From Butyrivibrio sp. (GTDB lineage: Bacteria > Bacillota > Clostridia > Lachnospirales > Lachnospiraceae): DNA of 56,682 nt. The first letter of the stretch is position 1. The number at the start of each line of letters is the position of its first letter. The notes beneath the pieces are model-generated. The model did no database searches and had not been told where the DNA came from. It saw nothing but the letters and a program-made list of their open reading frames with translations. Below, one piece after another: positions 16,658-44,942 of this stretch. The stretch spans positions 1 to 56,682 of the forward strand of contig JAFSQI010000101.1 in NCBI GenBank assembly GCA_017446685.1, read 5' to 3'. A program made the translations under genes and the position numbers.

Positions 16658-16676
16658 TAATCCATAAGTGTACAAT
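16649..16676 (+). promoter_or_regulatory. Weak candidate internal promoter before pseI
   Basis: TTAAGA (16649-16654) and TACAAT (16671-16676) are separated by 16 bases and lie in the 61-base gap before pseI. The -10 box matches 5 of 6, the -35 box 4 of 6. It is only suggestive. Confidence 0.2.
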
Positions 16677-16718
16677 AATAAGAAGATTACAGTTTAAACA
16701 AGAAAAAGAGGAAAAGTT

Positions 16719-17774: not shown

Positions 17775-17782
17775 CAAAAAAT

Positions 17783-18898
17783 ATGATTGGAATCAGAGTA
17801 GATGCAAACAGCATAATTGCAGCAGGGCATATGATGCGATGCATGACAATAGCGAAAGCTATCACTTCACTTGGCAGTTCAGTGATATTTTTCGTTGCTG
17901 ACAGTGAATCGAAAAAACTTTTAAATAATTTAATTGAACCAGATATGAAAACATGTGTTTTAAATACTGACTATAAGCACATGGATGATGAGGTTGAAAA
18001 GCTTATTTCGCTTCTTGAAAACTATGATGTCAGAACTTTATTGGTAGATTCGTATAATGTGACCTATAATTATTTTGAAAAGCTAAAGTCTGTATGCAAG
18101 ATAGCATATTTGGATGATCTACTTGCAGGTGTATATCCTGTTGATTTGATAATAAATTACAGTGGATATTCATTTCAAATGGGATATGAAGAAAAATATG
18201 AATCTGAAGGACTAAAAGCCAAAATGTTATTGGGGCTTAAGTATGCTCCGCTTAGAAAACAGTTTTATGAAAACAGAAGTGATTTAAGTAAAATAGCCGG
18301 TATAGAAGAAAAATTCTATTCAAATGATGATACAGTACATAGGTCTGAAGTCAAAGATATTCTTCTGGCAACAGGCGGGGCAGATATATGCGGTATGATA
18401 CTGCCAACCTTGAAAAAGGTTGAAGAATCAGGTGTTTCTCAAAATATCACATGGAATGTAGTTGTGGGCGATTATGTTGAAAATACAGATGAAATAGAAG
18501 AATATGCGGTGTCGCATAATAATATCAGGATTCACAAATCAGTAAAAAATATGGCACAGCTAATGAAAAGCTGCCAGATTGCGGTTCTTGCAGCCGGAAC
18601 AATGCTTACAGAATGTGCAGCACTTGGTCTTCCGGCAGTTTTTTATCAGGTTGCGGACAATCAGAAGTTTAATGTTTCCTATTTTGGGAAAACGGGCGGT
18701 ATGGTTTTTGCCGGAGATGTGACTAAGGGTGAAGTAGCAAAGGACAAAGTTATCAGCAATATCATTAAAGAAATTGGTGAAATTATATCAAATGATATAA
18801 AAAGATATGAAATGTCAGATAAGCTTAGAAGTATAACCGATGGAAGGGGCGCAGTTAGAATCGCAAAAGCGCTTATGGAACTTGAAAATGAAGCTTAG
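17783..18898 (+). CDS. pseG: PseG-like UDP-sugar hydrolase (first copy)
   Basis: PseG cleaves UDP from UDP-2,4-diacetamido-2,4,6-trideoxy-altrose to free the sugar for PseI. This 371-residue MurG-like GT-B protein begins IGIRVDANSIIAAGH; the motif GHMMRC (15-20) contains the catalytic histidine (His16). YLDDLLAG, the YAPLR segment and TGGAD follow as in PseG. The ATG has no clear ribosome binding site and lies 8 bases after the pseI stop, so coupled translation is likely. Compared with Campylobacter PseG it has about 100 extra residues. A second paralogue lies at 20648-21718. Confidence 0.7.
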   Translation: MIGIRVDANSIIAAGHMMRCMTIAKAITSLGSSVIFFVADSESKKLLNNLIEPDMKTCVLNTDYKHMDDEVEKLISLLENYDVRTLLVDSYNVTYNYFEKLKSVCKIAYLDDLLAGVYPVDLIINYSGYSFQMGYEEKYESEGLKAKMLLGLKYAPLRKQFYENRSDLSKIAGIEEKFYSNDDTVHRSEVKDILLATGGADICGMILPTLKKVEESGVSQNITWNVVVGDYVENTDEIEEYAVSHNNIRIHKSVKNMAQLMKSCQIAVLAAGTMLTECAALGLPAVFYQVADNQKFNVSYFGKTGGMVFAGDVTKGEVAKDKVISNIIKEIGEIISNDIKRYEMSDKLRSITDGRGAVRIAKALMELENEA

Positions 18899-19925
18899 CA
18901 TAATTGTTCCTGTATACAATATGGCAGGTGAAAATAAACTGAGGTACTGTATGGATTCTCTTTTGTCTCAGAATCTTGAGAATTTTGAGATTATCGCGGT
19001 GGATGACTGTTCGACTGACAATTCACTTGATATTTTAAAAGAGTATCAGACAAAAAATCCTGACAGGGTGAAGGCAGTTCACAGCGATGTGAATAAGCAT
19101 CAGGGAGGAGCCAAGAACATAGGCATCAGAGAAGCTAAGGGTGAATGGATCGGATTTATTGATGCGGATGATTGGATTGATCCGGATATGTATAGGCTTA
19201 TGATACAAAAGGCTGAAGAAACAGGGGCCGATATGGTTGGCTGTGATCTCAATATGACAGATAGGCACAGTTATGAAGTTGGAAAAATAATAGAACCAAA
19301 CGGAAATGCTTCTCAATCAGGAGTTCTTGATCATGATAAGAAAAAAAGTCTTATTCTTGATGGGGGCAGGCTTGTTGTCAAGATATACAAAAGAGAAAAT
19401 ATAATAAATAACAATCTTTATTTTCCTGAACACATTTTTTATGAAGACAATGCAATGAGCAACTCATATCTTCTTTCGGCGAAGCACTACGAGTATATTT
19501 CAAAACCTTGGTATTACTATTATCAGCATGAAAGCTCTACGGTTCATTCCTTTTCTGAGAAGATGTGCGAAGACAGAATGCAGGCAGCAAGAATAATGCT
19601 TAGTGAAGCAAAAAGACTGGGCTTTTATGAAGAGTTCAAGCCTGAACTGGAATTTATGTTTACGCAGCTGTTTTATGTTAATACACTTTTTACTTATATG
19701 CCCTGTGTAAAACCTGCTAAGCTTTCATTTGTAAAAAAACTGACAGATGAGATGATAAAAACTTTTCCGGACTTTGGCAAAAACAGTTATTATATAGAAA
19801 GAGTCGGAGAAGAAGAGAAAAAGCTGATAAATATGGCGTGTTCTTCTGTGACAGAGTTTTATTTATATTATAAGATTCTTTGGGGATATAGAAATCTTAG
19901 AAAGAGAATGGTGAAAAAGAGATGA
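18888..19925 (+). CDS. Glycosyltransferase family 2
   Basis: A 345-residue GT-A transferase inside the pseudaminic acid operon. It has LSIIVPVYN at the start, AVDDCSTDNS (37-46), GGAKNIGI (73-80) and the metal site DADD (92-95). The ATG at 18888 overlaps the previous stop by 11 bases and has GGAA upstream; a longer reading from 18840 would run through the previous gene and is not needed. The gene separates the first PseG-like gene from pseF, so its sugar probably enters the same oligosaccharide. The donor is unknown. Confidence 0.78.
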   Translation: MKLSIIVPVYNMAGENKLRYCMDSLLSQNLENFEIIAVDDCSTDNSLDILKEYQTKNPDRVKAVHSDVNKHQGGAKNIGIREAKGEWIGFIDADDWIDPDMYRLMIQKAEETGADMVGCDLNMTDRHSYEVGKIIEPNGNASQSGVLDHDKKKSLILDGGRLVVKIYKRENIINNNLYFPEHIFYEDNAMSNSYLLSAKHYEYISKPWYYYYQHESSTVHSFSEKMCEDRMQAARIMLSEAKRLGFYEEFKPELEFMFTQLFYVNTLFTYMPCVKPAKLSFVKKLTDEMIKTFPDFGKNSYYIERVGEEEKKLINMACSSVTEFYLYYKILWGYRNLRKRMVKKR

Positions 19926-20608
19926 AAACACTTGCGATGATAACAGCAAGAGGTGGAAGTAAAAGAATTCCAAGAAAGAACATAAAAGAATTTAATGGTA
20001 AGCCGATAATTGCTTATTCAATAGAAGCTGCTATTAAATCCGGAGTTTTTGATGAAGTGATGGTTTCAACAGATGATGAGGAAATTGCGCAGATTTCCCG
20101 CAGCTTCGGAGCAAGTATCCCATTCTACAGAAGTGAGAAGACTTCAAACGATTTTGCTACGACAACAGACGTTATAGAAGAGGTTATAAGCGAGTATAAG
20201 AAACGTGGAAAAGAATTTGATATTTTTTCCTGTATTTATCCAACAGCTCCTTTTGTAACATCCGACAGGTTAAAAGAAGCAGTTGATATGCTTTCAAAGT
20301 CGGATGCTGATTCACTTATTCCTGTTGTGAGATTTTCTTATCCGCCTCAGAGAGCAATGGAAATACAAGAAGGAAGGCTTTGTTTCAGACAGCCTGAAAA
20401 TCTTTCAAAGAGATCACAGGATTTGATACCGCATTATCATGATGCCGGACAATTCTATGTTTCGAGAACCGAGAGTTTCCTGAAAAATCGAAATATAATG
20501 ATTGGAAACATAATACCTATGGAATTATCAGAACTTGAAGTACAGGATATAGATAATGAAGTGGACTGGAAACTTGCGGAGTTAAAGTATAATCTTATAC
20601 ATGGTTGA
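19922..20608 (+). CDS. pseF: CMP-pseudaminic acid synthetase
   Basis: PseF activates pseudaminic acid with CTP. The 228 residues are typical in length. ARGGSKRIPRKNI (9-21) is the CTP-binding loop, STDDEEIA forms the next conserved block, YPTAPF follows, and the HYHDAGQFY segment near 180 is characteristic of PseF rather than NeuA. The ATG overlaps the previous stop by four bases (ATGA). The pathway from PseI to an activated sugar is therefore complete in this operon. Confidence 0.88.
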   Translation: MKTLAMITARGGSKRIPRKNIKEFNGKPIIAYSIEAAIKSGVFDEVMVSTDDEEIAQISRSFGASIPFYRSEKTSNDFATTTDVIEEVISEYKKRGKEFDIFSCIYPTAPFVTSDRLKEAVDMLSKSDADSLIPVVRFSYPPQRAMEIQEGRLCFRQPENLSKRSQDLIPHYHDAGQFYVSRTESFLKNRNIMIGNIIPMELSELEVQDIDNEVDWKLAELKYNLIHG

Positions 20609-26915: not shown

Positions 26916-28052
26916 ATGCGCATAAATTTTAATGTTCCACCATATACAGGAAAAGAAATTGAATATATAAAGGAGTGTGTTGACAACCAGAAAATTTGTG
27001 GTGATGGTCCGTACACTCAGAAAGCAAATGAGTGGTTTGAGAAAAAAACGGGAGTAAGTAAGGTGCTTCTTACAACATCCTGTACACATGCAACAGAAAT
27101 GTCTGCTATTCTTGCCGGAATCAAAGAAGGCGATGAAGTTATTATGCCTTCATATACTTTTGTTTCTACGGCCAATGCATTTGTACTTCGTGGAGCAAAG
27201 GTAATATTTGTGGATATCAGACCTGATACCATGAACATTGATGAGAATCTGATTGAGCAGGCAATCACTTCCAAAACCAGAGCTATAGTTCCTATGCATT
27301 ATGCAGGCGTTGGCTGTGAGATGGATACTATCATGGATATTGCAAGAAGACATAACCTGTTCGTTATTGAGGATGCAGCTCAGGGTGTTATGTCCACATA
27401 CAAGGGAAAAGCGCTTGGAGCAATTGGTGACTTTGGCAATTACAGCTTCCATGAAACCAAGAATTACAGTATGGGAGAAGGCGGAGCTCTTTTGCTTCGT
27501 GATGAAACGTATGTTGATGATGCTATAATAATAAGAGAAAAAGGAACCAACAGAACTCTTTATAAGCTGGGAAAAGTAGATAAATACAGCTGGATTGAAC
27601 CGGGATCTTCATATCTTCCAAGTGAGATGAATGCGGCATATCTGTATGCTCAGCTTGAGCTTGCAGACGAAATCAATAATGCCAGACTGGATCATTGGAA
27701 CAGATACTATAATGCACTGCTTCCGCTTAAGGAAAAAGGATTGATTGAACTTCCGTATATACCAAAGGAATGTGTCCAGAATGGTCATATGTTCTATATT
27801 AAGTGTAAAGATTTTGAGGAGAGATCAGGCCTGATCAAGTATTTGCAGAGCAATGATATTCTTCCTGCATCTCACTATGTACCGCTTCATTCTTCAAAGG
27901 CAGGGCTAAAATACAGTGAGTTTAGAGGAGAAGACCGTTATACTACAAAGGAAAGTGAAAGACTTCTTAGACTCCCTATGTATTATAAGTTAACAGATGA
28001 GGATTTGGATGAAGTTGTTATGAGAGTCAAAGAGTACTATAAGTTTTCATGA
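26916..28052 (+). CDS. wecE: dTDP-4-amino-4,6-dideoxygalactose transaminase
   Basis: WecE transfers an amino group from glutamate to dTDP-4-keto-6-deoxyglucose, forming the Fuc4N nucleotide sugar. The 378 residues match E. coli WecE over their whole length, including GDEVIMPSYTFVSTANAFV, SFHETKNY with the pyridoxal-phosphate lysine (Lys182), IREKGTNR and TTKESERLLRLP. AAAGGAG precedes the ATG. Its substrate needs RmlA and RmlB, which are not in the window. The likely product after acetylation is dTDP-Fuc4NAc. Confidence 0.88.
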   Translation: MRINFNVPPYTGKEIEYIKECVDNQKICGDGPYTQKANEWFEKKTGVSKVLLTTSCTHATEMSAILAGIKEGDEVIMPSYTFVSTANAFVLRGAKVIFVDIRPDTMNIDENLIEQAITSKTRAIVPMHYAGVGCEMDTIMDIARRHNLFVIEDAAQGVMSTYKGKALGAIGDFGNYSFHETKNYSMGEGGALLLRDETYVDDAIIIREKGTNRTLYKLGKVDKYSWIEPGSSYLPSEMNAAYLYAQLELADEINNARLDHWNRYYNALLPLKEKGLIELPYIPKECVQNGHMFYIKCKDFEERSGLIKYLQSNDILPASHYVPLHSSKAGLKYSEFRGEDRYTTKESERLLRLPMYYKLTDEDLDEVVMRVKEYYKFS

Positions 28053-29962: not shown

Positions 29963-30493
29963 ATGAATAATAATGAATTTGAAATGATAGGAAAAAAAGT
30001 ATCATTAAGGCTTATAACAAGGGATGATACTGATCTTATTGTTAAGTGGAGGAACAATGACAGGATAAGGAACAACTTTGTATACAGAGAGTTTTTTACC
30101 AAAGAAATACACGAAAACTGGTTAATAACAAAAGTTGATACCGGCAAAGTGGTTCAGATGATAATATGTGAAAATTCAAGAGACAACAGACCTGTTGGAA
30201 GCGTCTATTTGAGATATGATGATGATAACAGTAAAATTGCGGAATATGGAATTTTTATTGGCGAAGATGATGCTGTGGGTAAAGGGTATGGCAATGAAAC
30301 AGCCAGTCTAACGGTAGAGTATGCCAAAAACAAGCTTGGGCTGGATAAGCTGATGCTTAGAGTTTTTTCGTATAATAAGATTGCTCAAAAGAGTTATGAA
30401 CATGCAGGCTTTAGGAAGTCCGGTGAACTTCCTATGGTTGTATGCAGTGACGGACAAAAAAGTGATATGATACTCATGGAGCTTGTTTTATAG
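29963..30493 (+). CDS. GNAT acetyltransferase, candidate Fuc4N N-acetyltransferase
   Basis: A 176-residue GNAT protein of the RimJ/RimL-like type, with the acetyl-CoA loop GKGYGNE (106-112) and a C-terminal SYEHAGFRKSG segment. It is distinct from the PseH-like protein at 16223. By position, two genes after wecE and just before the GtrB-like gene, it is the natural candidate to acetylate the 4-amino group of the WecE product, a job done by WecD in E. coli. It does not closely resemble WecD in sequence, so this is inferred from context. Confidence 0.6.
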   Translation: MNNNEFEMIGKKVSLRLITRDDTDLIVKWRNNDRIRNNFVYREFFTKEIHENWLITKVDTGKVVQMIICENSRDNRPVGSVYLRYDDDNSKIAEYGIFIGEDDAVGKGYGNETASLTVEYAKNKLGLDKLMLRVFSYNKIAQKSYEHAGFRKSGELPMVVCSDGQKSDMILMELVL

Positions 30494-33211: not shown

Positions 33212-35854
33212 ATGAGAAAAATAATAAATAAAAAAACAGCGATTGAAGTAATAATTCTTATATTGGCAATTATGGCAATACTCAGTATTTTTCCGCTGAG
33301 AGTGTGGACTAAAGTTCAGAGCTTTTCGACCGGCGGTGAACTTGTGGAGAAATCTGAATATATAAACTATGAATATACAATGGCGCAGAAATTTGTTATT
33401 CAATATGATAGGTTAAGTAGTGTTGAATTGTATATTCCTGAAGTCGAAAATGGTAGGTATATTACAGTCTCAATAATGGATGAGAATGCTCGCGAGCTTT
33501 TGAGAACTTATGTAGATACAGAAGAATTTGAAATTCCGGGATATGTAACTGTTCCGCTGGAACTCAATGTGGAAGTGGGAAAAGAGTATTACCTTTCTTT
33601 ACAGGCCTGTCGTTCCAAGTTTTATGTAGGACTTGAGGATATTCCGGATGACACTGCATATGTTGGCAGCTTGTTTTACAATTGGGCAGAGATACCGGCA
33701 AGACATGTCGCTGCTGTTTACAATTATAGACTTCCTGTAGATAAAACAGTATCCCTTATGGCAATTCTGATTATTTTAGTTGTTGCAGGATTGTTCATTA
33801 CTTTTACAGAGTCATATTTTCAAAAAAGACCTGAAAAGAACGATGTATTTACTTTGGAAAAGACTATAAGAATTGTAGCAAACCCAATTGTATTCATAGT
33901 GTTTGGGGCACTTATGATAATGGTCTTTCCACTTAGGATTTTTGATTCAAGAGTTATAGATATAATTTTTTACGAAGCAGGGCTCTTGATATCTGCGGCA
34001 GTTGTATTTTATGCCATAAACCATAAGGCTGTAAGGCATAGCATAGGAATATCATTTTGGCAAAATATTCAGGGAAGCGACAGAGTAAGATACGTGCTTA
34101 TGATGGTTGCAATTGCAATGTCAATCTGGTATGCAAGTGAGTATATGAATGATCTTTATGACATTTATCACACCCTGTCAGAGCGCAGGATTATCATTTG
34201 CCTGCTGATACTTATTATTTTGACCTTTACATATAGTCAGGCAATTAATTTGTATAATATAGTTTGGGTGATTCTTTCTGTAATTGCAGGAGTTAACATT
34301 TACAAGGACAATGCTCTTGCAGATACGGAAAAAGAGTATGATCTTCATAATCTTGCACTAAAGTATCTTATTATAATTGCGGTACTTGCAGGACTTGTTT
34401 TGATAAATCTTTTAAGAGAAGCGGTTGAGAGATTTGTAGCTTTAAAAAATGCAAAGATAATTGAAAAAAGTCACAAATATGTACTTTCCACTTTTGGGGG
34501 GCTTCTGATTTTATTATTTGCAGCACTGATAATTTTCAGAAATACCAGGCTTTGGGGAATTTATATGGTGCTTATTTTTGGTGCCTTGTATATTAAAGTT
34601 TTCTTTTGGAATGGGAAAAAAGACTGGTACAAAATTTTATCAGGCGGTCTGATGTTGAATTTTGCTATTTCACTTGGCTATTCCATACTCCACAGATATT
34701 TTCCGGCATATGTAAGTGGAAGATTTGCATTTATTTTTCATACAGTTACAGTTACCGCAGAATACCTTACATTTATGGGAGCTGTAGGGGCAGTGATGCT
34801 TGTAATAAAAGTTGTGGCTTTTCCGAGAAAGCTTTCGGCATTTGATTTATTTAAATCTGCCTGGAAAGAGATTGTGCTTTTTGGTTTTATAATGGCTTAT
34901 GCTATTTTTACTGTGTCAAGAACTGCTTATGCTGCGATTATTGTGAGCGTATTTCTTGTTGTCATTATTGTGGCGTTTAGAAATAAAGGTCAGTTTATTA
35001 GAATCATAGCTGTTATGCTTGTGGCGGTATTATTGTGCTTCCCGGCAGCCTTTACTTTACAGAGAATTATTCCTACAATAGTTGCCAATCCGGTGTTCTA
35101 TGATATTGATGATGCTGATGCTTCGGTAAGAGGCGGAGCTAATTGGGACAGCAACAATTTTATGTGTGTTGAGAGGTTTGCAGGTCTTTTTGCATCAAAG
35201 ATACTTGGTATAGAAGTCGGTGATTATACATATCCTGACGATGTATATAATTATGACGAAAATGGTGCGCCTTTATATGATATATACGGATATCCAATGG
35301 ATAATCCGGTTGAGGAACAGGAAAATGAAGAATATGGTATGGGAAAAATTCCTGTTCCTATGGATGGTTATCTTGCTGCGGGAGGCTTTTCCGGCGCAGA
35401 ACGGAGAATGCTTCTTGCACTGACGGCAGGATATGTGGATGAAAACAGTGTTATTGACGTTTTGTCAAATGGGCGTATAACTATATTCAAGTCCTATTTA
35501 AATGAACTTAATTTGACAGGACATGACTCTATGGGAGCATTGCTTCCAAATGGTGAAGTAGCAGTTCATGCACATAATACATATCTTCAGGTGGCATATG
35601 ATAATGGAATATTTACAGGGATTATTTTTGTGATGACAATAGTTTGTGCTCTATTTTCGTCGCTTTCTCTTTACAGGAAAAATGAAAAAGATGATCCGCT
35701 TACATTGCTTACTTTTGCCATCACCCTGGGATTTGCTGTTGCAGGACTTACAGAATGGGTTTTTCACTTTGGAAATCCTATGACTATTGCGCTTATGCTT
35801 TCATTTGCGGGAATGATTTTTAAGGAAAAGAATTATGAGTCAAAAGAAAAATAA
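33212..35854 (+). CDS. O-antigen polymerase/ligase homologue (Wzy_C type), unusually long
   Basis: An 880-residue membrane protein. Residues 1-29 hold the first helix. Then about 110 extracytoplasmic residues with a beta-rich look follow (about 40-160), and after that twelve or so helices. The C-terminal part contains a large outer loop and the polymerase motif HNTYLQVAYDNG (788-799) typical of O-antigen ligases and polymerases. It would polymerise or ligate lipid-linked units on the outer face. Family members are usually near 400-450 residues, so the front half is an extension. It overlaps the next gene by 20 bases. Confidence 0.78.
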   Translation: MRKIINKKTAIEVIILILAIMAILSIFPLRVWTKVQSFSTGGELVEKSEYINYEYTMAQKFVIQYDRLSSVELYIPEVENGRYITVSIMDENARELLRTYVDTEEFEIPGYVTVPLELNVEVGKEYYLSLQACRSKFYVGLEDIPDDTAYVGSLFYNWAEIPARHVAAVYNYRLPVDKTVSLMAILIILVVAGLFITFTESYFQKRPEKNDVFTLEKTIRIVANPIVFIVFGALMIMVFPLRIFDSRVIDIIFYEAGLLISAAVVFYAINHKAVRHSIGISFWQNIQGSDRVRYVLMMVAIAMSIWYASEYMNDLYDIYHTLSERRIIICLLILIILTFTYSQAINLYNIVWVILSVIAGVNIYKDNALADTEKEYDLHNLALKYLIIIAVLAGLVLINLLREAVERFVALKNAKIIEKSHKYVLSTFGGLLILLFAALIIFRNTRLWGIYMVLIFGALYIKVFFWNGKKDWYKILSGGLMLNFAISLGYSILHRYFPAYVSGRFAFIFHTVTVTAEYLTFMGAVGAVMLVIKVVAFPRKLSAFDLFKSAWKEIVLFGFIMAYAIFTVSRTAYAAIIVSVFLVVIIVAFRNKGQFIRIIAVMLVAVLLCFPAAFTLQRIIPTIVANPVFYDIDDADASVRGGANWDSNNFMCVERFAGLFASKILGIEVGDYTYPDDVYNYDENGAPLYDIYGYPMDNPVEEQENEEYGMGKIPVPMDGYLAAGGFSGAERRMLLALTAGYVDENSVIDVLSNGRITIFKSYLNELNLTGHDSMGALLPNGEVAVHAHNTYLQVAYDNGIFTGIIFVMTIVCALFSSLSLYRKNEKDDPLTLLTFAITLGFAVAGLTEWVFHFGNPMTIALMLSFAGMIFKEKNYESKEK

Positions 35855-37781
35855 AGAGCCTTTTAACTATCAAAAACTATATAGAAGAACAGGGCTAATT
35901 ATTTATGACATTATCAGCATCATAGCTGCCAGCTACATTGCAATTCTGATAAGGTATGAGTTTAGAATAGGAAATATACCGGACCATTTCATAGATCCGG
36001 TCAATACATTTCTGCTGATAAATATCATTATTACACTGCTGATTTTTTATTTATTTAAGCTCTATGACAGCCTTTGGGCATATGCAGGCGAGCGTGAAAT
36101 GCAGAATCTCGTAATGGCATGTGTTATTTCGGGAGTAATAAACGCAGTAGGACTTCAGTTTTTTAAATCTGAGTCTCAGCCTGTTCCACAGAGTTATTAT
36201 TTTCTGTATACATTTTTGCTTATCACCTTTATTTTTGTCAGCAGATTTTCATACAGATTCTTGAGAAGTCAGAAGCATAGAGCCGAGAACAGAAATAACA
36301 GCAAGGCAGTTATGATAATCGGTGCAGGTGAAGCAGGCAATGCAATCATAAAAGAGATTATCACCAGCAACTACTCAACAATGTCAATTAAATGTATTAT
36401 CGATGACGATACAGCTAAATGGGGCAAGTACATTCAGGGCATCAGAGTGGTCGGTGGAAGAGACCGCATTGTTGAATGTGCAGATTTGTACGATATAGAT
36501 GAAATTATTGTTGCCATTCCTTCTGTTTCCAGACAGGAAATGAAAAAAATCCTGGATATCTGTAAGAATACAAACTGTAAATTGCGTTCGCTTCCCGGAA
36601 TGTATCAGCTTGTAAATGGTGAAGTGAATGTTTCACGACTAAGAGATGTTGAAGTAGAAGATCTTCTTGGAAGAGATCCCATAGCCGTTGATATGGATTC
36701 CATTGCAGGTTATGTAAAAAACAAGGTTGTCATGGTTACAGGTGGTGGCGGTTCCATAGGTTCGGAGCTGTGCAGACAGATTGCAGAGCATGGACCAAAA
36801 CGTCTGATAATTGTTGATATATATGAAAATAATGCCTATGAAATTCAACAGGAGCTTAAAGGAAAATACAAAGAACTTGATCTTGTGGTACTGATTGCTT
36901 CTGTTAGAAACACTTTGAGAATTAATAATATTTTTGAAGAGTACAAACCGGATATTGTATATCATGCAGCTGCACACAAGCATGTTCCGCTTATGGAGGA
37001 CAGTCCGGGAGAAGCAATTAAAAACAATGTATTCGGAACCTGGAAGACTGCGATGGCAGCAGCGATGAACGGAACAAAGAAATTCGTTCTTATCTCGACA
37101 GACAAAGCTGTTAACCCTACAAACGTCATGGGTGCGAGCAAGAGAATCTGTGAGATGATTGTTCAGACATTTAATAAGCATTATGATACTGAATTTGTAG
37201 CAGTGCGTTTTGGAAATGTACTTGGTTCAAACGGTTCGGTTATACCTCTTTTCAAGAAGCAGATAGCTTCAGGAGGTCCTGTTACTGTTACTGATCCGAG
37301 AATCATCAGATATTTTATGACAATTTCAGAGGCGGTTTCACTTGTCATGCAGGCAGGTGCCTATGCAAAGGGCGGTGAAATATTTGTCCTTGACATGGGA
37401 GAACCGGTTAAAATCCTTGACCTTGCCGAGAACCTTATCAAGTTGTCTGGATACAAGGTGGGAGAGGACATAAAAATTGAATTTACAGGACTTCGCCCTG
37501 GCGAAAAGCTCTATGAAGAGATGCTTATGGATGAAGAGGGACTTCAGGATACATCAAACAAGATGATCCATATAGGTAAACCGATTGAGCTTGATGAAAT
37601 GAGGTTTTTTGCCCAGCTTGAAAGACTGAAAGTTGCTGCAAAAGAGGAATCTCCGGAAGTTAAGCATATTGTTCAGGAGATAGTAACAACCTATCATCCA
37701 ACGGATAATGAAGCAGATCATACCAAGGAACATATAGCCGCATTAAAGAAGGTGGCTGACAAAATAAATGAGGAAGATTGA
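35835..37781 (+). CDS. pglF: UDP-GlcNAc 4,6-dehydratase, membrane type (PglF/CapD)
   Basis: This enzyme turns UDP-GlcNAc into UDP-4-keto-6-deoxy-GlcNAc. The 648 residues have about four N-terminal helices (about 15-145), a first Rossmann domain with IIGAGEAGNA near 160, and the catalytic SDR domain with TGGGGSIGSE (302-311), STDK (421-424) and the MGASKR segment. The length and the membrane part fit PglF and CapD, not the short soluble PseB. AAGGA sits well before the ATG. It feeds the aminotransferase next to it. Confidence 0.88.
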   Translation: MSQKKNKEPFNYQKLYRRTGLIIYDIISIIAASYIAILIRYEFRIGNIPDHFIDPVNTFLLINIIITLLIFYLFKLYDSLWAYAGEREMQNLVMACVISGVINAVGLQFFKSESQPVPQSYYFLYTFLLITFIFVSRFSYRFLRSQKHRAENRNNSKAVMIIGAGEAGNAIIKEIITSNYSTMSIKCIIDDDTAKWGKYIQGIRVVGGRDRIVECADLYDIDEIIVAIPSVSRQEMKKILDICKNTNCKLRSLPGMYQLVNGEVNVSRLRDVEVEDLLGRDPIAVDMDSIAGYVKNKVVMVTGGGGSIGSELCRQIAEHGPKRLIIVDIYENNAYEIQQELKGKYKELDLVVLIASVRNTLRINNIFEEYKPDIVYHAAAHKHVPLMEDSPGEAIKNNVFGTWKTAMAAAMNGTKKFVLISTDKAVNPTNVMGASKRICEMIVQTFNKHYDTEFVAVRFGNVLGSNGSVIPLFKKQIASGGPVTVTDPRIIRYFMTISEAVSLVMQAGAYAKGGEIFVLDMGEPVKILDLAENLIKLSGYKVGEDIKIEFTGLRPGEKLYEEMLMDEEGLQDTSNKMIHIGKPIELDEMRFFAQLERLKVAAKEESPEVKHIVQEIVTTYHPTDNEADHTKEHIAALKKVADKINEED

Positions 37782-37783
37782 TC

Positions 37784-39055
37784 ATGGAATTAAAACCCTT
37801 TGAGAAAAAAGTGTATCTATCATCTCCAACAATGCATGGTGATGAACTTAAATATATGGAAGAGGCATACACTACAAACTGGATGTCTACAGTAGGCGCC
37901 AATATAAATGAAGCTGAGAAAATGGTGACAGAGAAAATAGGATGCAAGGATGCCGTAGCTCTTTCTTCAGGAACGGCTGCACTTCATCTGGCAATAAAAC
38001 TGGCAGGTGAAAGGTTATATGGGCAGCCTAAAGTTGGACATGGAGCTCTTGAAGGAAAAAAGGTTTTTTGTTCAGATATGACTTTTGATGCTACAGTCAA
38101 TCCTGTAGCTTATGAAGGCGGAGAAGCAGTATTTATTGATACTGAGTGTGACACCTGGAATATGTCTCCAAAAGCTTTGGAGAAGGCGTTTGAAATCTAT
38201 CCGGAGGTTAAGCTTTTAGTAATTGCACATCTATATGGTACTCCCGGAAAAATAGATGAGATTAGAACTATATGCGACAAGCACGGCGCTCTTATTGTTG
38301 AAGATGCTGCAGAGTCATTCGGCGCAACCTACAAGGGAGTACAGACAGGAAACTTTGGAGATTATTCTATTATTTCTTTTAACGGAAACAAGATAATTAC
38401 AGGCTCGTCCGGTGGAATGTTTATTACAGATTCCATGGAGGATGCACACAAGGTGCGCAAGTGGTCCACACAGGCAAGAGAAGATGCTGCCTGGTATCAG
38501 CATGAGGAACTTGGATATAATTACCGCATGAGTAATGTAATTGCCGGTGTGGTAAGAGGACAGCTTCCATATCTTGAAGAACATATTGCTCAGAAAAAGG
38601 CAATTTATAACAGATACAAAGAAGGCTTCAAAGACCTTCCCGTTAAGATGAATCCGTATGACGAGAAAAACAGTGAACCTAATTTCTGGCTTTCATGCCT
38701 TATTATTGATAAAGAGGCAATGTGCAGGCAGGTTCGCGGCGAAAAAGATGTCCTTTATGTTACGGAACCGGGAAAAACATGTCCTACTCAGATACTTGAA
38801 ACCATTGCAAAATATAATGCAGAGGGAAGACCAATCTGGAAACCAATGCATATGCAGCCGGTGTACAGAATGAATCCATTTATTACAGAAAGCGGAAATG
38901 GCAGAGCAAGGAGCAACGCTTATATAAATGAGGGAGCAGAGCCGGATGTTGGTATGGATATTTTTGAAAGAGGCTTGTGTCTTCCAAGTGATAACAAGAT
39001 GACCCCTGAGCAGCAGGATGTTATTATTGAGATAGTAAAAAGGTGCTTCCGATAA
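37784..39055 (+). CDS. pglE: UDP-4-amino sugar aminotransferase (PglE type)
   Basis: A pyridoxal-phosphate enzyme of the DegT family that aminates UDP-4-keto-6-deoxy-GlcNAc. The 423 residues show [51 protein letters not shown] with the lysine at 203, STQARE and GYNYRMSN, all as in PglE. The frame could start at TTG 37778, but GAGGAAG is well spaced for ATG 37784. It overlaps nothing upstream and its stop overlaps the pglC-like ATG. No partner PglD acetyltransferase follows. Confidence 0.88.
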
Positions 39056-39669
39056 TGTACAAGAATTTTTTTAAACGTATTATAGATATAATATTGTCGC
39101 TTATAGTGATAATCTGCTTTTCCTGGCTCTACATCATAGTAGCTGTTCTTGTCAGAGTTAAGCTGGGGAGTCCTGTAATTTTTAAGCAGCCTCGTCCCGG
39201 AAGGAACGAAAAGGTTTTTAATATGTACAAATTCCGTTCCATGACTGATGAGAGGGATGAGAACGGAAATCTGCTCCCGGATGAGGTAAGACTCACCGCT
39301 TTTGGCAAAAAACTTCGTGCAACAAGCCTTGATGAACTTCCTGAGTTTTTTAATATCTTAAAGGGTGACATGAGCTTTGTGGGACCAAGACCGCTTCTTG
39401 TTAAGTATCTGCCTCTTTATAATGAAGAGCAGAGACATAGACATGATGTTAGACCGGGACTTACAGGATGGGCTCAGGTTAACGGCAGGAACCTTCTTAG
39501 CTGGGAAGACAGATTCGAAAAAGATGTTTATTATGCAAGAAATATTTCTTTTTTATTTGATTTAAAAATTGTATTTAAGACTGTCGCAGTAGTTTTTAAA
39601 CATAATGATATAAACAGTGCTACAGATGCTACGATGGAGGCATTTACAGGCACTAAACCAAAGGAGTAA
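39055..39669 (+). CDS. pglC: Phosphoglycosyl transferase (PglC type)
   Basis: A 204-residue monotopic transferase that moves a diamino-trideoxyhexose phosphate to undecaprenyl phosphate. It has one N-terminal re-entrant helix (about 6-32), then [26 protein letters not shown] with the catalytic Asp-Glu pair, [10 protein letters not shown] and GWAQVNGRN. It is the short PglC type without the extra helices of the WcaJ-like enzyme at 165-1571. The ATG overlaps the previous stop (TAATG). A GTG at 39043 is also in frame but unnecessary. It starts the second glycan. Confidence 0.9.
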
Positions 39670-39674
39670 TAAAG

Positions 39675-40670
39675 ATGAACATTTTGTTTTGCAGCGTAGG
39701 AAGACGTTGCGAGCTTTTAAAGGATTTTAGAAAGACACTCGGAGATAAAATCAAAATTGTTGTCACAGATAACAGTACTTATGCACCTGCGCTGGCTTTT
39801 GCAGACATAAGCTACCAGGTTCCGCTGATAACAGATGAAACTTATATTCCTAAGATACTTGAAATCTGTAAAAAAGAAAAAATAGATGCAGTTACAACTC
39901 TTATTGATCCGGAAATTTCAATTCTGGCAGAGCACAGAGAAGAATTCGAAAACCTTGGTGTTACAGTACTTGCACCATATATAGAAACAGCAGATCTTTG
40001 CTTTGATAAATTCAAAATGTATCAGTACCTTACTCAAAAGGGAGTAAATACTGTAAAAACCTATGGAACTTTGGAGGACTTTGATAAGGACTACAAAGAT
40101 GGCAAAATTACTCTTCCTGTGTTTGTCAAGCCAAGAACAGGAAGCGGAAGTGTAGGTGCAAGGAAGGTTGAAACCTATGAACTTCTACAGGAATTAATTT
40201 CAAGGGATCCATCTCTTATTATTCAGGAGCTTATGACAGGAAAGGACATGGATGCTGATGTTTATGTTGATACCTGCAGTGGAGAGGTAGTAGCTATCTT
40301 TTCAAAGAAAAAGATTTCAACAACCATAGGCGGGGCAAATAAGACAATATCCTTTAAAGACCAGGCACTTTTTGATTTTGTAAAAGATGCCATGAAGGTA
40401 TTTAAATTCAACGGACCGCTTGATATGGACCTCTTTTTTCAGGACGGTAAGTACTATTTGTCTGAGATAAATCCTAGATTTGGCGGCGCATACCTTCATG
40501 CTTACGGGGCAGGAGTAGATTTTCCGGCATTTATTTACAACAATGTAGTTGAAAAGAAGGCGAACAGGCAGCAGATAGGTGAATATGAAGAGGATGTCGT
40601 AATGATGATGTATGACAGCGTTGTGATCGATACCCTGGCTAATTTGAAAGGCAGAACGAAAGAAATCTGA
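39675..40670 (+). CDS. ATP-grasp ligase, candidate 4-N-acylating enzyme
   Basis: A 331-residue ATP-grasp protein of the carbamoyl-phosphate-synthase-like group. A Rossmann-like front (MNILFCSVGRRCELL) is followed by the ATP-grasp domain with VFVKPRTGSGSVGARK, IIQELMTGKDMDADV and EINPRFGG (264-271), whose acidic and Asn residues bind the metals. These ligases form an amide between a carboxylate and an amine. It follows the PglC-type gene by 5 bases with AAAGGAG. In Neisseria PglB2 an ATP-grasp domain is fused to the PglC-type domain and adds glycerate to the 4-amino sugar. I infer the same job here in split form. Confidence 0.8.
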   Translation: MNILFCSVGRRCELLKDFRKTLGDKIKIVVTDNSTYAPALAFADISYQVPLITDETYIPKILEICKKEKIDAVTTLIDPEISILAEHREEFENLGVTVLAPYIETADLCFDKFKMYQYLTQKGVNTVKTYGTLEDFDKDYKDGKITLPVFVKPRTGSGSVGARKVETYELLQELISRDPSLIIQELMTGKDMDADVYVDTCSGEVVAIFSKKKISTTIGGANKTISFKDQALFDFVKDAMKVFKFNGPLDMDLFFQDGKYYLSEINPRFGGAYLHAYGAGVDFPAFIYNNVVEKKANRQQIGEYEEDVVMMMYDSVVIDTLANLKGRTKEI

Positions 40671-41776
40671 TGAAGATATTGATTTTTACCAACTATGCCA
40701 ATGGCTTATACCTGTTTAGAAAAGAGCTTGTAGAGAATTTTCAGAAAAACGGACACGAGGTTTTCGTGTCTGTTCCTTTTGATGATAATTGTGTCAAGTT
40801 AAAAAATATGGGCGTCACACTTCTGGAAGCTCCTTTAGAAAGACATGGCATGAATCCTGCAAAAGATATAAAACTTTTTGGACACTACATGCGCAGCATA
40901 AAAAAAATAAGGCCGGAAGTTGTACTGACCTACACAATAAAGCCAAATATTTACGGAGCCTTGGCGGCAAGAATAAAAAGAATTCCGTATATTTGCAATG
41001 TTACAGGACTTGGACTTGCTATTGAAAGCGGTGGGACACTCAGTAAAATATTATTGAAGTTTTATTCAATATCTATGAAAAAAGCCGGAAAAGTCTTTTT
41101 CCAGAATGAAAGAAATATGAAGTTTATGCAGGAAAGAGGCGTCGCAGAAAAAAATGCAGGTCTTTTGCCAGGCTCAGGTGTAAATCTGCTTGAACATCCG
41201 TTTTCTGACTATCCTTCCGAGAAGGATGGAATTCATATCCTTGCTGTACTTCGCGTAATGAAGGATAAAGGAGTTTCAGAATATCTTGAGATGGTTAGAA
41301 CACTTAAGCCCAAATATCCCGATGTGTTCTTTGAACTTGTGGGTGAGTATGAGGAAGATGAGAGAGAGAATTTTGAACCTGAAATAAATAATCTTGTTGA
41401 TTTGAGGTATCTTAAATACTATGGGCATATTGATAATGTGCCTGAAGTCATGGCATCGAATCATATAGTTGTACATCCTTCCTACCATGAGGGATTATCT
41501 AATGTCCTTTTGGAAGCAGCAGCTTGTGGAAGACCGGTACTTGCCACTAATGTCAATGGTTGTAAGGAAACTCTCGATGCAGATAGAAGCGGGTATCTCT
41601 TTGAGCCCCGTGATGCAAAATCTCTTATTTTGGCAGTTGAAAAAATATTATCTCTTTCCGAAGAAAAGAGAAGAGAAATGGGAGCTTTGGGCCGTAGATG
41701 GGTTGAAGAGCGCTTTGACAGAAAACTTGTAATAGAAGCCTATAATAAGGAATTAAAAAAATTAAAATCGGTTTGA
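40670..41776 (+). CDS. Glycosyltransferase family 4, PglA-like
   Basis: A 368-residue GT-B enzyme. Its build resembles PglA, which adds the second sugar to undecaprenyl-diphospho-bacillosamine: ANGLYLFRKELVE near the start, PNIYGALAARIKRIPYICNVTGLG in the middle, and a donor-site region with HPSYHEGLSNVLLEAAACG. The ATG overlaps the previous stop (TGATG). With the four genes before it, this gives a PglF-PglE-PglC-ATP-grasp-PglA order. The donor sugar is unknown; PglA enzymes often use UDP-GalNAc or UDP-Gal. Confidence 0.78.
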   Translation: MKILIFTNYANGLYLFRKELVENFQKNGHEVFVSVPFDDNCVKLKNMGVTLLEAPLERHGMNPAKDIKLFGHYMRSIKKIRPEVVLTYTIKPNIYGALAARIKRIPYICNVTGLGLAIESGGTLSKILLKFYSISMKKAGKVFFQNERNMKFMQERGVAEKNAGLLPGSGVNLLEHPFSDYPSEKDGIHILAVLRVMKDKGVSEYLEMVRTLKPKYPDVFFELVGEYEEDERENFEPEINNLVDLRYLKYYGHIDNVPEVMASNHIVVHPSYHEGLSNVLLEAAACGRPVLATNVNGCKETLDADRSGYLFEPRDAKSLILAVEKILSLSEEKRREMGALGRRWVEERFDRKLVIEAYNKELKKLKSV

Positions 41777-41849: not shown

Positions 41850-43166
41850 ATGAGTTTATATGAGAAGCTCCTTTCAGGAGAAGAAAAACTTTCACTTGTA
41901 GGTCTTGGATACGTTGGCATGCCAATTGCCGTAGCTTACGCCAAGAAGATTAAGGTGGTAGGTTACGATTTCAATGCTGCCAAGGTTCAGCTTTATAAGA
42001 ACGGAATTGATCCGACAAGAGAAGTTGGCAATGATGCTATTAAGGAGACTTCGGTAGATTTTACAGCTGATCCTGAAAAACTTCGCGAGTGTAAATTCCA
42101 TATCGTAGCTGTACCTACACCGGTAAATAATGACCATACACCGGATCTTTCACCTGTTGAGGGCGCGAGCCACACTCTTGGTAAGTACCTTACAAAGGGA
42201 TCAATAGTAGTATACGAATCAACAGTATATCCCGGAGTAACAGAAGATATATGTGTTCCGATTCTTGAAAAAGAATCAGGACTTAAATGCGGAGTTGACT
42301 TTAAAATCGGCTATTCACCCGAGCGTATAAATCCCGGTGACAAGGTTCACAGACTTGATACTATCACAAAGATTGTATCAGGTATGGATGAAGAGACACT
42401 TGAAGAAGTTGCAAACGTATACAGCCTGGTAGCACTTGCAGGAGTTTACAAGGCTCAGTCCATCAAGGTTGCAGAGGCTGCAAAGGTTATTGAAAACTCA
42501 CAGCGCGATATCAATATTGCGTTCATGAATGAACTTTCCATGATCTTTAACAGAATGGGAATAGATACAAAGAGCGTTTTGGAAGCTGCAGGTACAAAGT
42601 GGAACTTCTTAAACTTCCGCCCGGGACTTGTAGGTGGACACTGTATTGGTGTTGATCCTTACTATCTTACATACAAGGCTGAGGAACTTGGATATCATTC
42701 ACAGATTATCCTTTCCGGACGTCGTATCAATGATGATATGGGTAAATATATTGCGGAGTCATGTGTTAAGAGACTTATTGCCGCAGATATTCCGGTTAAG
42801 AATGCTAAAGTGGCAATTCTTGGATTTACCTTCAAGGAAAACTGTCCTGATACACGTAATACAAAGATCATTGACATTTATAATGAACTTGGAGAGTACG
42901 GAATTACTCCTGTAGTTGTAGATCCACAGGCTGATGCTGACGAAGCAAAGAGACTTTACGGAATAGAATTCAATTCACTTGATGATGTTAAGGATATGGA
43001 TGCAGTTATCATGGCAGTTGCTCATGAAGATTTTGCTTCTTATAAGCCTTCAGATATATTAAAGTTCTTTAATTCAGATAATAAGACCAAGGTATTCATG
43101 GATCTTAAGGGAATGTATAACCTTGAAGACTATAAGGCTCCTGAGTTCGATTACTGGAGACTGTGA
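41850..43166 (+). CDS. tviB: UDP-N-acetylhexosamine 6-dehydrogenase (TviB/WbpO)
   Basis: This NAD-dependent enzyme oxidises UDP-GlcNAc (or UDP-GalNAc) twice to the uronic acid. The 438 residues hold VGLGYVGMP (17-25), VPTPVNND, VYESTVYPG, the SPERINPGD segment, and GGHCIGVDPYY with the catalytic Cys265. The match to TviB of the Vi antigen pathway is strong through the IILSGRRINDDMG segment. GGAGG precedes the ATG. A 73-base gap in front, the largest in this region, carries TTGACA at 41773 and TATAAT at 41786, but their spacing is wrong for one promoter. It feeds the epimerase next to it. Confidence 0.9.
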   Translation: MSLYEKLLSGEEKLSLVGLGYVGMPIAVAYAKKIKVVGYDFNAAKVQLYKNGIDPTREVGNDAIKETSVDFTADPEKLRECKFHIVAVPTPVNNDHTPDLSPVEGASHTLGKYLTKGSIVVYESTVYPGVTEDICVPILEKESGLKCGVDFKIGYSPERINPGDKVHRLDTITKIVSGMDEETLEEVANVYSLVALAGVYKAQSIKVAEAAKVIENSQRDINIAFMNELSMIFNRMGIDTKSVLEAAGTKWNFLNFRPGLVGGHCIGVDPYYLTYKAEELGYHSQIILSGRRINDDMGKYIAESCVKRLIAADIPVKNAKVAILGFTFKENCPDTRNTKIIDIYNELGEYGITPVVVDPQADADEAKRLYGIEFNSLDDVKDMDAVIMAVAHEDFASYKPSDILKFFNSDNKTKVFMDLKGMYNLEDYKAPEFDYWRL

Positions 43167-43193: not shown

Positions 43194-44168
43194 ATGGGAT
43201 TTAGAGATTTAAAATTTCCGGAAGGCTCTGTCTTCCTTGTAACAGGCGGTGCAGGATTTATAGGTTCGAATATTTGTGAAGCACTTCTTGATATGGGATA
43301 TACAGTAAGATGCATGGATAACCTTTCAACAGGTCATATTGAGAATATCCAGCCTTTTATGAGTAATCCGAAATTTACTTTTTTAGAAAAAGATATACGT
43401 GATCTCGATGCATGTATGGAAGCCACAAAGGACGTTGATTATGTTCTTAATGAAGCTGCATGGGGATCTGTTCCAAGAAGTATTGAAATGCCTCTTTTGT
43501 ATGAGGAGATAAATATCAGAGGAACACTTAACATGATGGAAGCCTCCAGGCAAAATGGAGTTAAAAAGTTTGTATATGCTTCAAGTTCTTCTGTTTATGG
43601 TGATTCTACAATACTTCCAAAAAAGGAAGGTCAGGAAGGAAACGTTCTTTCTCCATATGCTCTGACAAAGAGAACTGATGAAGAATACGGAAAATTATAT
43701 AAGAAGCTGTACAATCTCGATACATATGGTCTTAGATATTTCAATGTATTTGGGCGCAGGCAGGATCCTAATGGAGCCTATGCTGCAGCTATTCCAAAGT
43801 TTCTTCGTCAGCTTATGAACGGTGAGACACCTACTATCAATGGAGACGGAAAACAGTCAAGAGACTTTACATATGTTGATAATGTTATAGAAGGAAATCT
43901 TCGTGCGTGCCTTGCATCTTCTGAGGCAGCAGGCGAAGCTTACAATATCGGGGCAGGCGGAAGAGAGTATCTTATAGATGTATACCATCACTTGACAGAT
44001 GCTCTTGGAATGGATGTTGAGCCTGTGTTTGGACCTCCGAGAGCTGGAGATATAAGGGATTCCAATGCAGATATAACCAAGGCAAGAAAAAATCTCGGAT
44101 ATGATCCTTCATATGACTTCAAAGCAGGTATAGAGCTTGCAATAGACTGGTACAAGAAAAATTTGTAA
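43194..44168 (+). CDS. tviC: UDP-GlcNAc(A) 4-epimerase (TviC/WbpP)
   Basis: A 324-residue SDR epimerase that would turn UDP-GlcNAcA into UDP-GalNAcA. The NAD motif TGGAGFIGS (17-25), AAWGSVPRSIEMP, ASSSSVYGD and YALTK (Tyr155, Lys159) are present, with GLRYFNVFGRRQDPNGAY as in TviC and WbpP. It follows tviB by 27 bases, exactly the Vi-antigen pair. Together they should supply the GalNAcA that the later AsnB proteins could amidate. Confidence 0.88.
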   Translation: MGFRDLKFPEGSVFLVTGGAGFIGSNICEALLDMGYTVRCMDNLSTGHIENIQPFMSNPKFTFLEKDIRDLDACMEATKDVDYVLNEAAWGSVPRSIEMPLLYEEINIRGTLNMMEASRQNGVKKFVYASSSSVYGDSTILPKKEGQEGNVLSPYALTKRTDEEYGKLYKKLYNLDTYGLRYFNVFGRRQDPNGAYAAAIPKFLRQLMNGETPTINGDGKQSRDFTYVDNVIEGNLRACLASSEAAGEAYNIGAGGREYLIDVYHHLTDALGMDVEPVFGPPRAGDIRDSNADITKARKNLGYDPSYDFKAGIELAIDWYKKNL

Positions 44169-44186: not shown

Positions 44187-44942
44187 ATGAAAATTACAAT
44201 AAGAATGGATGATATCACTCCGGATATGGACTGGGACAAGTTTTACAGGTTCAAGTCCATATTGGACAAGAATGGGATAAATCCTCTCATTGGAGTGGTA
44301 CCTGACAATAAAGATGAGAAACTCAGAAAAAACCCTGTAAAAGAGGACTTCTGGCAATATATATGCGGCCTTCAGCAACACGGTTGGACTGTGGCAATGC
44401 ATGGTTATAATCATTTGTATTCCACAAAAGAATCCGGATTATTTCCGATAGGCGATAAATCTGAGTTTGCGGGGTTGTCCTACAAAAAGCAGGACGATAT
44501 GATAAGAGAAGGAAAGAGAATTCTTAAATCAAACGGTATTGTTACTGATTTCTTTATGGCTCCTTCTCATTCCTATGATAAGAACACACTTAAGGCACTC
44601 AAGAAAAACGGATTTTACAGAATTACTGATGGATTCGGGGAGAATCCCTATGAATTTAACGGTATTGTTTTTTACCCGATTGCTGTAAGTAAAAGTGACT
44701 CATTAAAGAGTACAAAAGATGGAATCGTAACATTCGTTTATCATACAAATACAATGAATGATAAGGATTTTGAAGCTTTTGAGAAGATGCTTTCGAAAGG
44801 GCAGTTTGTATCATATGATGAGTTTTTCAAATGTAATGCATCACTTAGGAGTTTCAAAGAAGAAGCTCTTGAGTATCTAACAGCTAAGAGCAAGTATCTG
44901 GCAGTCAGGCTAAAGAGGGTAGCAAGCCAAAAGAAGAGTTGA
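44187..44942 (+). CDS. DUF2334 polysaccharide-deacetylase-like protein
   Basis: A 251-residue NodB-like fold protein with the metal-binding MDDITP start (Asp8, Asp9) and HGYNH (72-76). DUF2334 proteins are thought to remove acetyl groups from sugars. There is no signal peptide or membrane helix, so it would act in the cytoplasm on a nucleotide- or lipid-linked sugar, unlike the secreted deacetylases. It lies 18 bases after tviC. A free amine made here could be a substrate for another modification. The substrate is unknown. Confidence 0.75.
   Translation: MKITIRMDDITPDMDWDKFYRFKSILDKNGINPLIGVVPDNKDEKLRKNPVKEDFWQYICGLQQHGWTVAMHGYNHLYSTKESGLFPIGDKSEFAGLSYKKQDDMIREGKRILKSNGIVTDFFMAPSHSYDKNTLKALKKNGFYRITDGFGENPYEFNGIVFYPIAVSKSDSLKSTKDGIVTFVYHTNTMNDKDFEAFEKMLSKGQFVSYDEFFKCNASLRSFKEEALEYLTAKSKYLAVRLKRVASQKKS

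Follow-up and report, generated by a model that had tools for sequence, protein, structure and literature searches.

Gene Content of the Cassette

The window analyzed here, a stretch of 56,682 bp of Butyrivibrio sp. (contig JAFSQI010000101.1), a relative of common gut bacteria, carries a compact cassette of five plus-strand genes (positions 35835–41776), in which a free-standing ATP-grasp ligase is encoded between a phosphoglycosyl transferase (PGT) and a glycosyltransferase. As proposed in the first-pass annotation, the order is PglF, PglE, PglC, ATP-grasp, and glycosyltransferase, represented by a PglF-type membrane UDP-GlcNAc 4,6-dehydratase (35835–37781, 648 aa), a PglE/LegC-type aminotransferase (37784–39055, 423 aa), a short PglC-type PGT (39055–39669, 204 aa), the ATP-grasp ligase (39675–40670, 331 aa), and a glycosyltransferase of family GT4 (40670–41776). 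PglE and PGT, as well as ATP-grasp and GT4, overlap by one base each, PglF and PglE are separated by two bases, and PGT and ATP-grasp, which indeed represent separate neighbouring open reading frames, by five. The ATG starts at 39055 (PGT) and 37784 (PglE) are more likely than the GTG at 39043 and the TTG at 37778, respectively, given in the list of open reading frames.

The PglF-like protein was assigned by PF02719 (409 bits) and a CoA_binding_3 domain, and its best solved relative was 5bju, named ‘WlaL protein’ (E 3.5e-95), the STDKAV.PTN.MG stretch being retained. For the PglE-like protein of the DegT family (PF01041, 242 bits), the best solved relatives were 1o61 (E 7.6e-67) and 4ztc (E 5.1e-66). 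Its NGNKIIT stretch was aligned and retained, the lysine therein presumably being the one that binds pyridoxal phosphate (PLP), and its score against the LegC model TIGR04181 was below the cut-off (291.3 vs. 420 bits). The PGT (PF02397, 214.5 bits) aligned with 8g1n, an N,N'-diacetylbacilliosaminyl-1-phosphate transferase, over residues 1–199 of 204 (E 1.1e-79), with the SLDELP and GPRPLL stretches retained; the Asp-Glu pair in SLDELP is taken to be catalytic, as in short monotopic PGTs. Judged by sequence, these three proteins are a PglF-type dehydratase, a PglE-type aminotransferase, and a short PGT of a PglF-PglE-PglC pathway, and their closest solved relatives presumably belong to the Campylobacter Pgl and Bacillus Eps pathways.

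The ATP-grasp protein comprises PylC_N and ATP-grasp_3 domains and passed the cut-off of the model NF009406 (449.7 vs. 271 bits). K112, K152, E264, N266, and R268 were invariant in a 27-row ligase alignment. The protein has the ATP-grasp fold and retains the residues for ATP and metal. The GT4 protein (PF00534, 97.8 bits) presumably adds the second sugar. No cut-off was reached among the best 25 of its 33 NCBIfam matches, and the label ‘PglA-like’ previously given to it lacked specific support, the PglA model being absent from these 25 matches.

Occupants of the Position between PGT and GT4

The cassette lies in a recurrent frame composed of a Wzy-like protein, PglF, PglE, PGT, a variable position (the slot), GT4, a dehydrogenase, an epimerase, and a DUF2334 protein. 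In the window, the Wzy/O-antigen-ligase-like membrane protein (33212–35854, plus strand; PF04932, 22.7 bits, below the cut-off) overlaps PglF by 20 bases, and relatives of it were also located 5' of PglF in many loci. Downstream of GT4, the plus strand encodes a UDP-sugar 6-dehydrogenase (UGD; 41850–43166; PF03721/PF00984/PF03720), a TviC-like UDP-sugar epimerase (43194–44168; PF01370, 200 bits; NF011728, 271.8 bits, below the cut-off of 760), and a DUF2334 polysaccharide-deacetylase-like protein (44187–44942; PF10096, 183 bits). UGD is conserved at this place, with at least 650 bits in 31 of 34 PGT-GT4 loci.

To describe the slot, loci (L numbers) and genomes (G numbers) were sampled via PglF at 1e-255 and not via the ligase, which yielded 43 places in 42 of 397 genomes. 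The filter, PGT (at least 140 bits) followed by GT4 (at least 240 bits) and UGD (at least 650 bits), was passed by 21 loci of the same family. The 22 places dropped comprised L204, encoding a FemAB protein without the dehydrogenase, five places featuring ATP-grasp after PGT without such a GT4 (L054, L184, L187, L190, and L210), and 16 others, some of them cut by contig ends and some devoid of a PGT (such as L199 and L208, where PglE is directly followed by UGD). The underlying labels, obtained with an open reading frame caller and phmmer, are rough, and genes with a frameshift or across a contig end are missed.

In total, the slot was occupied by ATP-grasp in 17 of the 21 loci, by PglD in one (L095), by FemAB in one (L205), and by nothing in two (L083 and L200, the latter also missing PglE). 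PglD and ATP-grasp were never found together between PGT and GT4 (0 of 21). Of the 17 ATP-grasp genes, ten stand alone, one is fused to the PGT (L194, a 541-aa protein of the same ligase class), one is fused to a HAD domain (L050), three follow a PALP enzyme (L047, L196, and L197), and two follow a decarboxylase-like PLP enzyme (L041 and L206). FemAB proteins use aminoacyl-tRNA. Furthermore, a locus found via PglE (L064), whose PglE is 77% identical to that of the window, contained PglD in the slot (237.9 bits, above the cut-off).

Slot contents also varied within the genus. Genomes G207, G573, and G735 retain the window ligase class. In G614 and G769, the dehydrogenase (903–906 vs. 908–911 bits to the window) and epimerase (683–706 vs. 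669–688 bits) scored close to those of the former three, whereas the values were far lower for PGT (278–298 vs. 398–404 bits), ligase (256–283 vs. 598–632 bits), and GT4 (303–318 vs. 513–524 bits), and G769 featured an added PALP gene in the cassette. This pattern looks like an exchange of the cassette within one genus.

The absence of PglD noted in the first-pass annotation was borne out. No gene of the NeuD/PglD family (TIGR03570) was found in the cassette, and the best score across the own genome was 30.9 bits (cut-off 160.8). Since the assembly is 88.75% complete, a gap could hide a PglD gene. The same-genus genomes G207 and G573, both listed as 100% complete and carrying the same cassette (L191 and L224), had no NeuD/PglD match at E ≤ 1e-15. 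Among 24 relatives searched, five exceeded the cut-off: in G087, the match is the slot gene itself, and in G370, G301, G060, and G735, it is located elsewhere in the genome, the slot being occupied by the ligase.

Prevalence of ATP-Grasp Genes beside PGT Genes

Relatives of the ligase (1e-30) were detected in 23 of 200 genomes of the same family, own genome included. They consist of the window, 20 matches with wide flanks, G079 (represented by the PglE locus L084), and G007, which has no wide flanks. When HAD-linked ligases were searched against a single genome for each species, at least 567 confirmed relatives emerged, 80 of which were kept. These 80 loci originated from Bacillota or Mycoplasmatota/Tenericutes, plus two named just ‘bacterium’ (L120 and L130), and Neisseria was not among them. 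HAD directly followed the ligase in 75 and PGT directly preceded it in 61 of the 80 loci (both in 60). Within three genes of the ligase, PGT was present in 74 loci, PglE in 47, and PglD in none. The arrangement is not unusual: the proposed neighbourhood search for PGT beside ATP-grasp without PglD showed it to be ordinary in Bacillota and to occur outside this phylum as well, namely on a Segatella plasmid (PGT, ligase, and, farther on, HAD and aminotransferase) and on a Sphingobium plasmid (PGT, PLP enzyme, GNAT, ligase, and DegT aminotransferase).

Of the 21 class-1 loci (see below) obtained via ATP-grasp searches (L037–L047 and L222–L231), 19 featured a PGT within three genes, the misses being L046 and L229, which is situated at a contig end. 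Compared to the eight PGT genes in the 3.24 Mb of the own genome, this adjacency exceeds chance. Outside this cassette, many PGT genes adjoin neither PglD nor a window-type ligase, as deduced from ten of 16 PglE-found loci that were scanned. There, the gene directly after PGT encoded a glycosyltransferase of family 2 (four loci), a polysaccharide pyruvyl transferase, another ATP-grasp protein (L070), a class I/II aminotransferase, a GNAT protein (L088 and L089), or a product without family (L092). In L089 (6042–7665), the gene next to PGT and GNAT encodes a FemAB-like protein (346 bits against a FemAB from the slot). A full-text query for ATP-grasp and phosphoglycosyl transferase matched no open-licence PubMed Central paper, a result dependent on wording, as PMC11130364 was missed by its spelling.

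The company of PGT genes also bears on the family name. NF009406 and the solved entry 2pn1 are named after carbamoyl phosphate synthase, which would suggest an enzyme unrelated to the cassette sugar. The entries consulted cite no measured activity behind this name, and since the gene accompanies PGT in nearly all loci and is fused to PGT in L194, a carbamoyl phosphate synthase function was rejected and is regarded as highly improbable.

Ligase Classes, Partner Genes, and Residues

Ligases were assigned in this analysis to three classes by motif, namely class 1a, which includes the window enzyme (TTIGGANKT and GGAYLHA), class 1b (MRAGETDK and GGGYPHA), and the HAD-type class (RSGEI.KG and GGGAPMS), with nine ligases outside all three. 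The window ligase has no HAD gene within three genes, and it carries TTIGGANKT, not the motif R.GE[IV].K of the HAD-linked class. The ‘carbamoyl phosphate synthase-like’ relative (NF009406/PRK12767, PDB 2pn1) features the class 1b motif MRAGETDK, in contrast to TTIGGANK of the window class.

Partner genes within three genes of the ligase were counted for loci with at least 2.5 kb of upstream sequence (10 of class 1a, 23 of class 1b, and 72 of HAD-type, some class-1 loci being PglF-found). PGT accompanied all classes (9/10, 22/23, and 70/72, respectively), and PglD was rare or absent (0/10, 0/23, and 2/72). HAD was found in 68 of the 72 HAD-type loci, in none of class 1b, and in one of class 1a (L130, where it is located behind a second ligase). 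PLP enzymes were present in 12 of the 23 class 1b loci (seven PALP and six decarboxylase-like, L228 encoding both), in 1/72 HAD-type loci, and in 1/10 class 1a loci, and UGD in 7/10, 15/23, and 1/72 loci of classes 1a, 1b, and HAD-type. NCBIfam labels were obtained for two PALP and two decarboxylase-like proteins, the other PLP enzymes being labelled by Pfam or phmmer. For the PALP proteins of L047 and L058, the nearest models were D-cysteate sulfo-lyase, D-cysteine desulfhydrase, and ACC deaminase, and for the decarboxylase-like proteins of L041 and L043, diaminopimelate and N-citrylornithine decarboxylases, all of them below their cut-offs.

In the ligase tree, which was read as unrooted with its splits checked, classes 1a and 1b together with enzymes from E. 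coli and the Sphingobium plasmid were separated from all 86 HAD-type ligases (support 0.995). Class 1a received a support of 1.0, the other 23 class 1b members 0.936, and the node joining both 0.745. The Sphingobium enzyme (L233) has the 1b motif yet groups with E. coli L058, L051, and L052, and 1b by motif is therefore not one clade; the residue table was compiled without L233. Throughout its class 1b and HAD-type rows, R217, E220, and K/R312 are retained. At these positions, class 1a has T in 10 of 11 (K in L130), G in 11 of 11, and M in 11 of 11 sequences, respectively, and G272 and P274 are replaced by A and L. Assuming roles for these positions in binding, the changes would indicate an altered substrate pocket in class 1a.

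These data bear on the nature of the acid. Glycerate, or phosphoglycerate together with a phosphatase encoded elsewhere, would lead to a 4-glyceramido sugar of the Neisseria type. Neisseria PglB2, described as an ‘ATP grasp/phosphorglycosyl-transferase’, is responsible for the glyceramido sugar GATDH (PMC11130364; PMC6959607), and a 4-(D-glyceroyl)amino sugar appears in the title of a Pragia fontium paper cited by PMC10609480. Moreover, according to PMC11800379, the TupA-like ATP-grasp domain of C. jejuni capsule synthesis joins glucuronic acid to phosphorylated serinol or ethanolamine in amide linkage, and the phosphate is taken off by Cj1435, for which a paper with a HAD phosphatase in its title is cited. 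This precedent for an ATP-grasp/HAD pair makes it a fair guess by analogy that HAD-type ligases use a phosphorylated acid, which HAD then dephosphorylates. However, no HAD accompanies the window ligase or class 1b, and class 1a is devoid of R217 and K/R312, which may bind phosphate or carboxylate. Glycerate is thus considered unlikely for the window enzyme.

We favour an amino acid instead, because the branch of the window enzyme (1a/1b) is linked to PLP enzymes and the HAD-type class to HAD phosphatases, and because the window ligase has lost Arg217, Glu220, and Lys/Arg312. Amino acids on such amino-sugar nitrogens are known, for example D-alanyl at N-7 of the legionaminic acid of E. coli O161, hydroxybutanoyl-D-alanyl on the Qui4N of E. 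coli O123 (both PMC10609480), and N-acetyl-D-alanyl on Qui4N (PMC3210612); the cited passages name no ligase.

Several further loci illustrate the combinations in which these domains occur. L093 (9025–11277) encodes a single 750-aa protein composed of PGT, ATP-grasp, and HAD, whose ligase domain has lost both KPxxGSxS and EINPRFGG, and at least one such ligase is thus probably inactive. In L039 (9058–11142), PGT is fused to a decarboxylase-like PLP domain and followed by the ligase. The E. coli plasmid pLAU-OXA3 (L058, NZ_CP045280.1) carries a surface-sugar locus with DegT aminotransferase, GNAT, D-cysteine-desulfhydrase-like enzyme, and ATP-grasp genes in a row, a locus type found on plasmids of four of 5,426 E. 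coli genomes. The set of PGT, PALP, GNAT, and ATP-grasp recurs in L228 (genome G696 of the same taxonomic class) and in Sphingobium L233, and hints at an N-acetylated amino acid as substituent.

Proposed Function of the Ligase and Alternatives

According to the proposed pathway, PglF would dehydrate UDP-GlcNAc and PglE would aminate C4, resulting in UDP-2-acetamido-4-amino-2,4,6-trideoxyglucose. The ATP-grasp ligase would then activate a carboxylic acid, in all likelihood an amino acid or something closely related, as acyl phosphate by means of ATP and couple it to the 4-amino group, as the counterpart of the acetyl-CoA-dependent PglD step elsewhere. Subsequently, the PglC-type PGT would transfer the acylated sugar phosphate to undecaprenyl phosphate, and GT4 would add the next sugar. 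The ligase takes the place of PglD in otherwise alike cassettes (L064 and L095), FemAB is another occupant of this place, and the ligase is fused to PGT in L194. The best reading, hence, is that the 4-amino group is the target of the ligase. That the window enzyme is the 4-N-acyl ligase of the initiating sugar is considered probable, although the reaction itself, the UDP-sugar rather than the lipid-linked sugar as acceptor, and the identity of the acid are all inferred from sequence and gene context. Regarding the earlier proposal of a 4-amino group carrying glycerate, an amino acid, or another carboxylate, slot exchange and the L194 fusion support the ligase part, and glycerate has become less likely than an amino acid.

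Some observations weigh against this assignment. L083 encodes PglF, PglE, and PGT with an empty slot, and L041, L042, and L207 possess the ligase without PglE in the cassette, PglE being located elsewhere in each genome. Four of 20 other genomes with a slot ATP-grasp, as listed above, encode a NeuD-family protein above the cut-off elsewhere, and G769, also with a slot ATP-grasp, has a match below it (129.8 bits). Since PLP enzymes are near just one of the ten class 1a loci, the amino-acid guess rests on class 1b. PglD and ATP-grasp are encoded side by side in the HAD-type loci L056 and L063, and L130 and L159 each combine two ligases that differ in class within a single stretch, so that a second site of action is conceivable for a ligase. 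Finally, a GNAT acetyltransferase encoded in the window, which the first-pass annotation had not weighed, is a possible alternative 4-N-acetyltransferase.

This PseH-like GNAT (29963–30493, plus strand; PF13302, 60 bits) ends 5.3 kb upstream of PglF and scored below the TIGR03585 cut-off (67.9 vs. 93.1 bits). If it acetylated the 4-amino group, diacetylbacillosamine would be formed and the ligase would act on another sugar, for example by amidating a uronic acid produced by UGD and the epimerase, similar to the glucuronic acid amidation in C. jejuni (PMC11800379). Consistent with this, a GNAT relative is located upstream in L083, where the slot is empty, and UGD is frequent near class 1a and 1b ligases. 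On the other hand, GNAT relatives are also encoded upstream of the ligase cassettes L037, L042, L191, L192, and L207, and GNAT is therefore no stand-in for the ligase; moreover, a WecE-type aminotransferase (26916–28052, above its cut-off) is located 1.9 kb away from the window GNAT, and its product could be the GNAT substrate, the two perhaps forming a separate pair. Amidation of a uronic acid is further weakened by the HAD-type ligases, which accompany PGT but not UGD, by the ligase-PGT fusion, and by the persistence of UGD where the slot contains PglD, FemAB, or nothing (L064, L095, L205, L083, and L200). Acetylation by the GNAT, with the ligase working on another sugar, is rated as rather doubtful, slightly more so than glycerate.

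Alternatively, the ligase could add a second acyl unit to an already acylated sugar or work after transfer to undecaprenyl. The loci with two ligases or with PglD beside a HAD-type ligase would fit this, as would the sets of GNAT, PALP, and ligase in L228, Sphingobium L233, and E. coli L058, and chains such as the hydroxybutanoyl-alanyl on Qui4N (PMC10609480) do exist. The window, however, encodes a single ligase and no PglD, and 16 of 20 other slot-ligase genomes are devoid of a NeuD-family gene above the cut-off, making this alternative quite improbable.

Beyond acylation of the 4-amino group by the window ligase, a more general model is put forward tentatively, as one that may well prove wrong. 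The Lachnospiraceae cassette would contain one exchangeable acyl slot between PGT and the first glycosyltransferase, in which PglD (using acetyl-CoA), a FemAB-like protein (using aminoacyl-tRNA), and two kinds of ATP-grasp, one partnered by D-amino-acid-type PLP enzymes and the other by a phosphatase, interchange between constant flanks, even within one genus. The window enzyme would represent a third class of ligase, devoid of the Arg-Glu pair and of the Lys/Arg found in the other two, and, hence, probably attaches an acid that is new for initiating sugars.

Comparison with Known Systems

Like Neisseria PglB2, as its architecture is described, the window combines a PglC-type PGT and an ATP-grasp ligase next to PglF/PglE-type genes, in replacement of the acetyltransferase. 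Unlike the PglB2 fusion, both parts are separate in the window, and fusions were found in its relatives L194 and, together with HAD, L093. With the fusion absent, the window system is not classed as a PglB2, but it probably works like one. In the Campylobacter PglF-PglE-PglD-PglC and Bacillus EpsC-EpsN-EpsM-EpsL systems (EpsCNM being proposed as PglFED counterparts in PMC10653937), the acetyltransferase is present, whereas the window has no PglD/EpsM and the ligase instead. The C-terminal ATP-grasp domain of C. jejuni Cj1438 is likewise a capsule amide ligase, and its phosphatase partner Cj1435 resembles the HAD-linked class. However, Cj1438 is TupA-like and activates the carboxylate of the sugar itself, whereas the proposed window ligase would join an acid to a sugar amine.

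Further Loci in the Window and the Genome

Pseudaminic acid genes are located at positions 16223–20608 of the window, encoding a PseH-like GNAT (16223–16657; 51.9 bits, below the cut-off of 93.1), PseI (16719–17774; 480.7 bits, cut-off 340.25), PseG (17783–18898; 190.3 bits, cut-off 153.55), and PseF (19922–20608; 289.6 bits, cut-off 205.7). A second, long-form PGT (468 aa) is encoded near the window start (165–1571), and the window may thus hold two polysaccharide loci. A DUF6044 protein (12063–13811; 486 bits) is encoded on the minus strand among plus-strand genes. Elsewhere in the own genome (L061, C58:1–16000), PglE occurs in another copy (69% identical) together with a distant ATP-grasp gene, NeuB-like and PseF-like genes, and a PglK-like ABC transporter. 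PF02397 had no match on this contig; the locus is a nonulosonic-acid cluster that may likewise make use of a ligase.

Biological Relevance

It is the 4-N substituent on the initiating sugar that PGT and subsequent enzymes see, and it is part of the contact with host and phages. If the proposed function is true, a single exchangeable gene setting this substituent would explain how these bacteria vary their initiating sugar, and the gene swaps observed among relatives suggest a means of varying surface coats. Furthermore, the large protein family currently called ‘carbamoyl phosphate synthase-like’ would gain a testable function, and the acyl group might be predictable from the gene beside the PGT.

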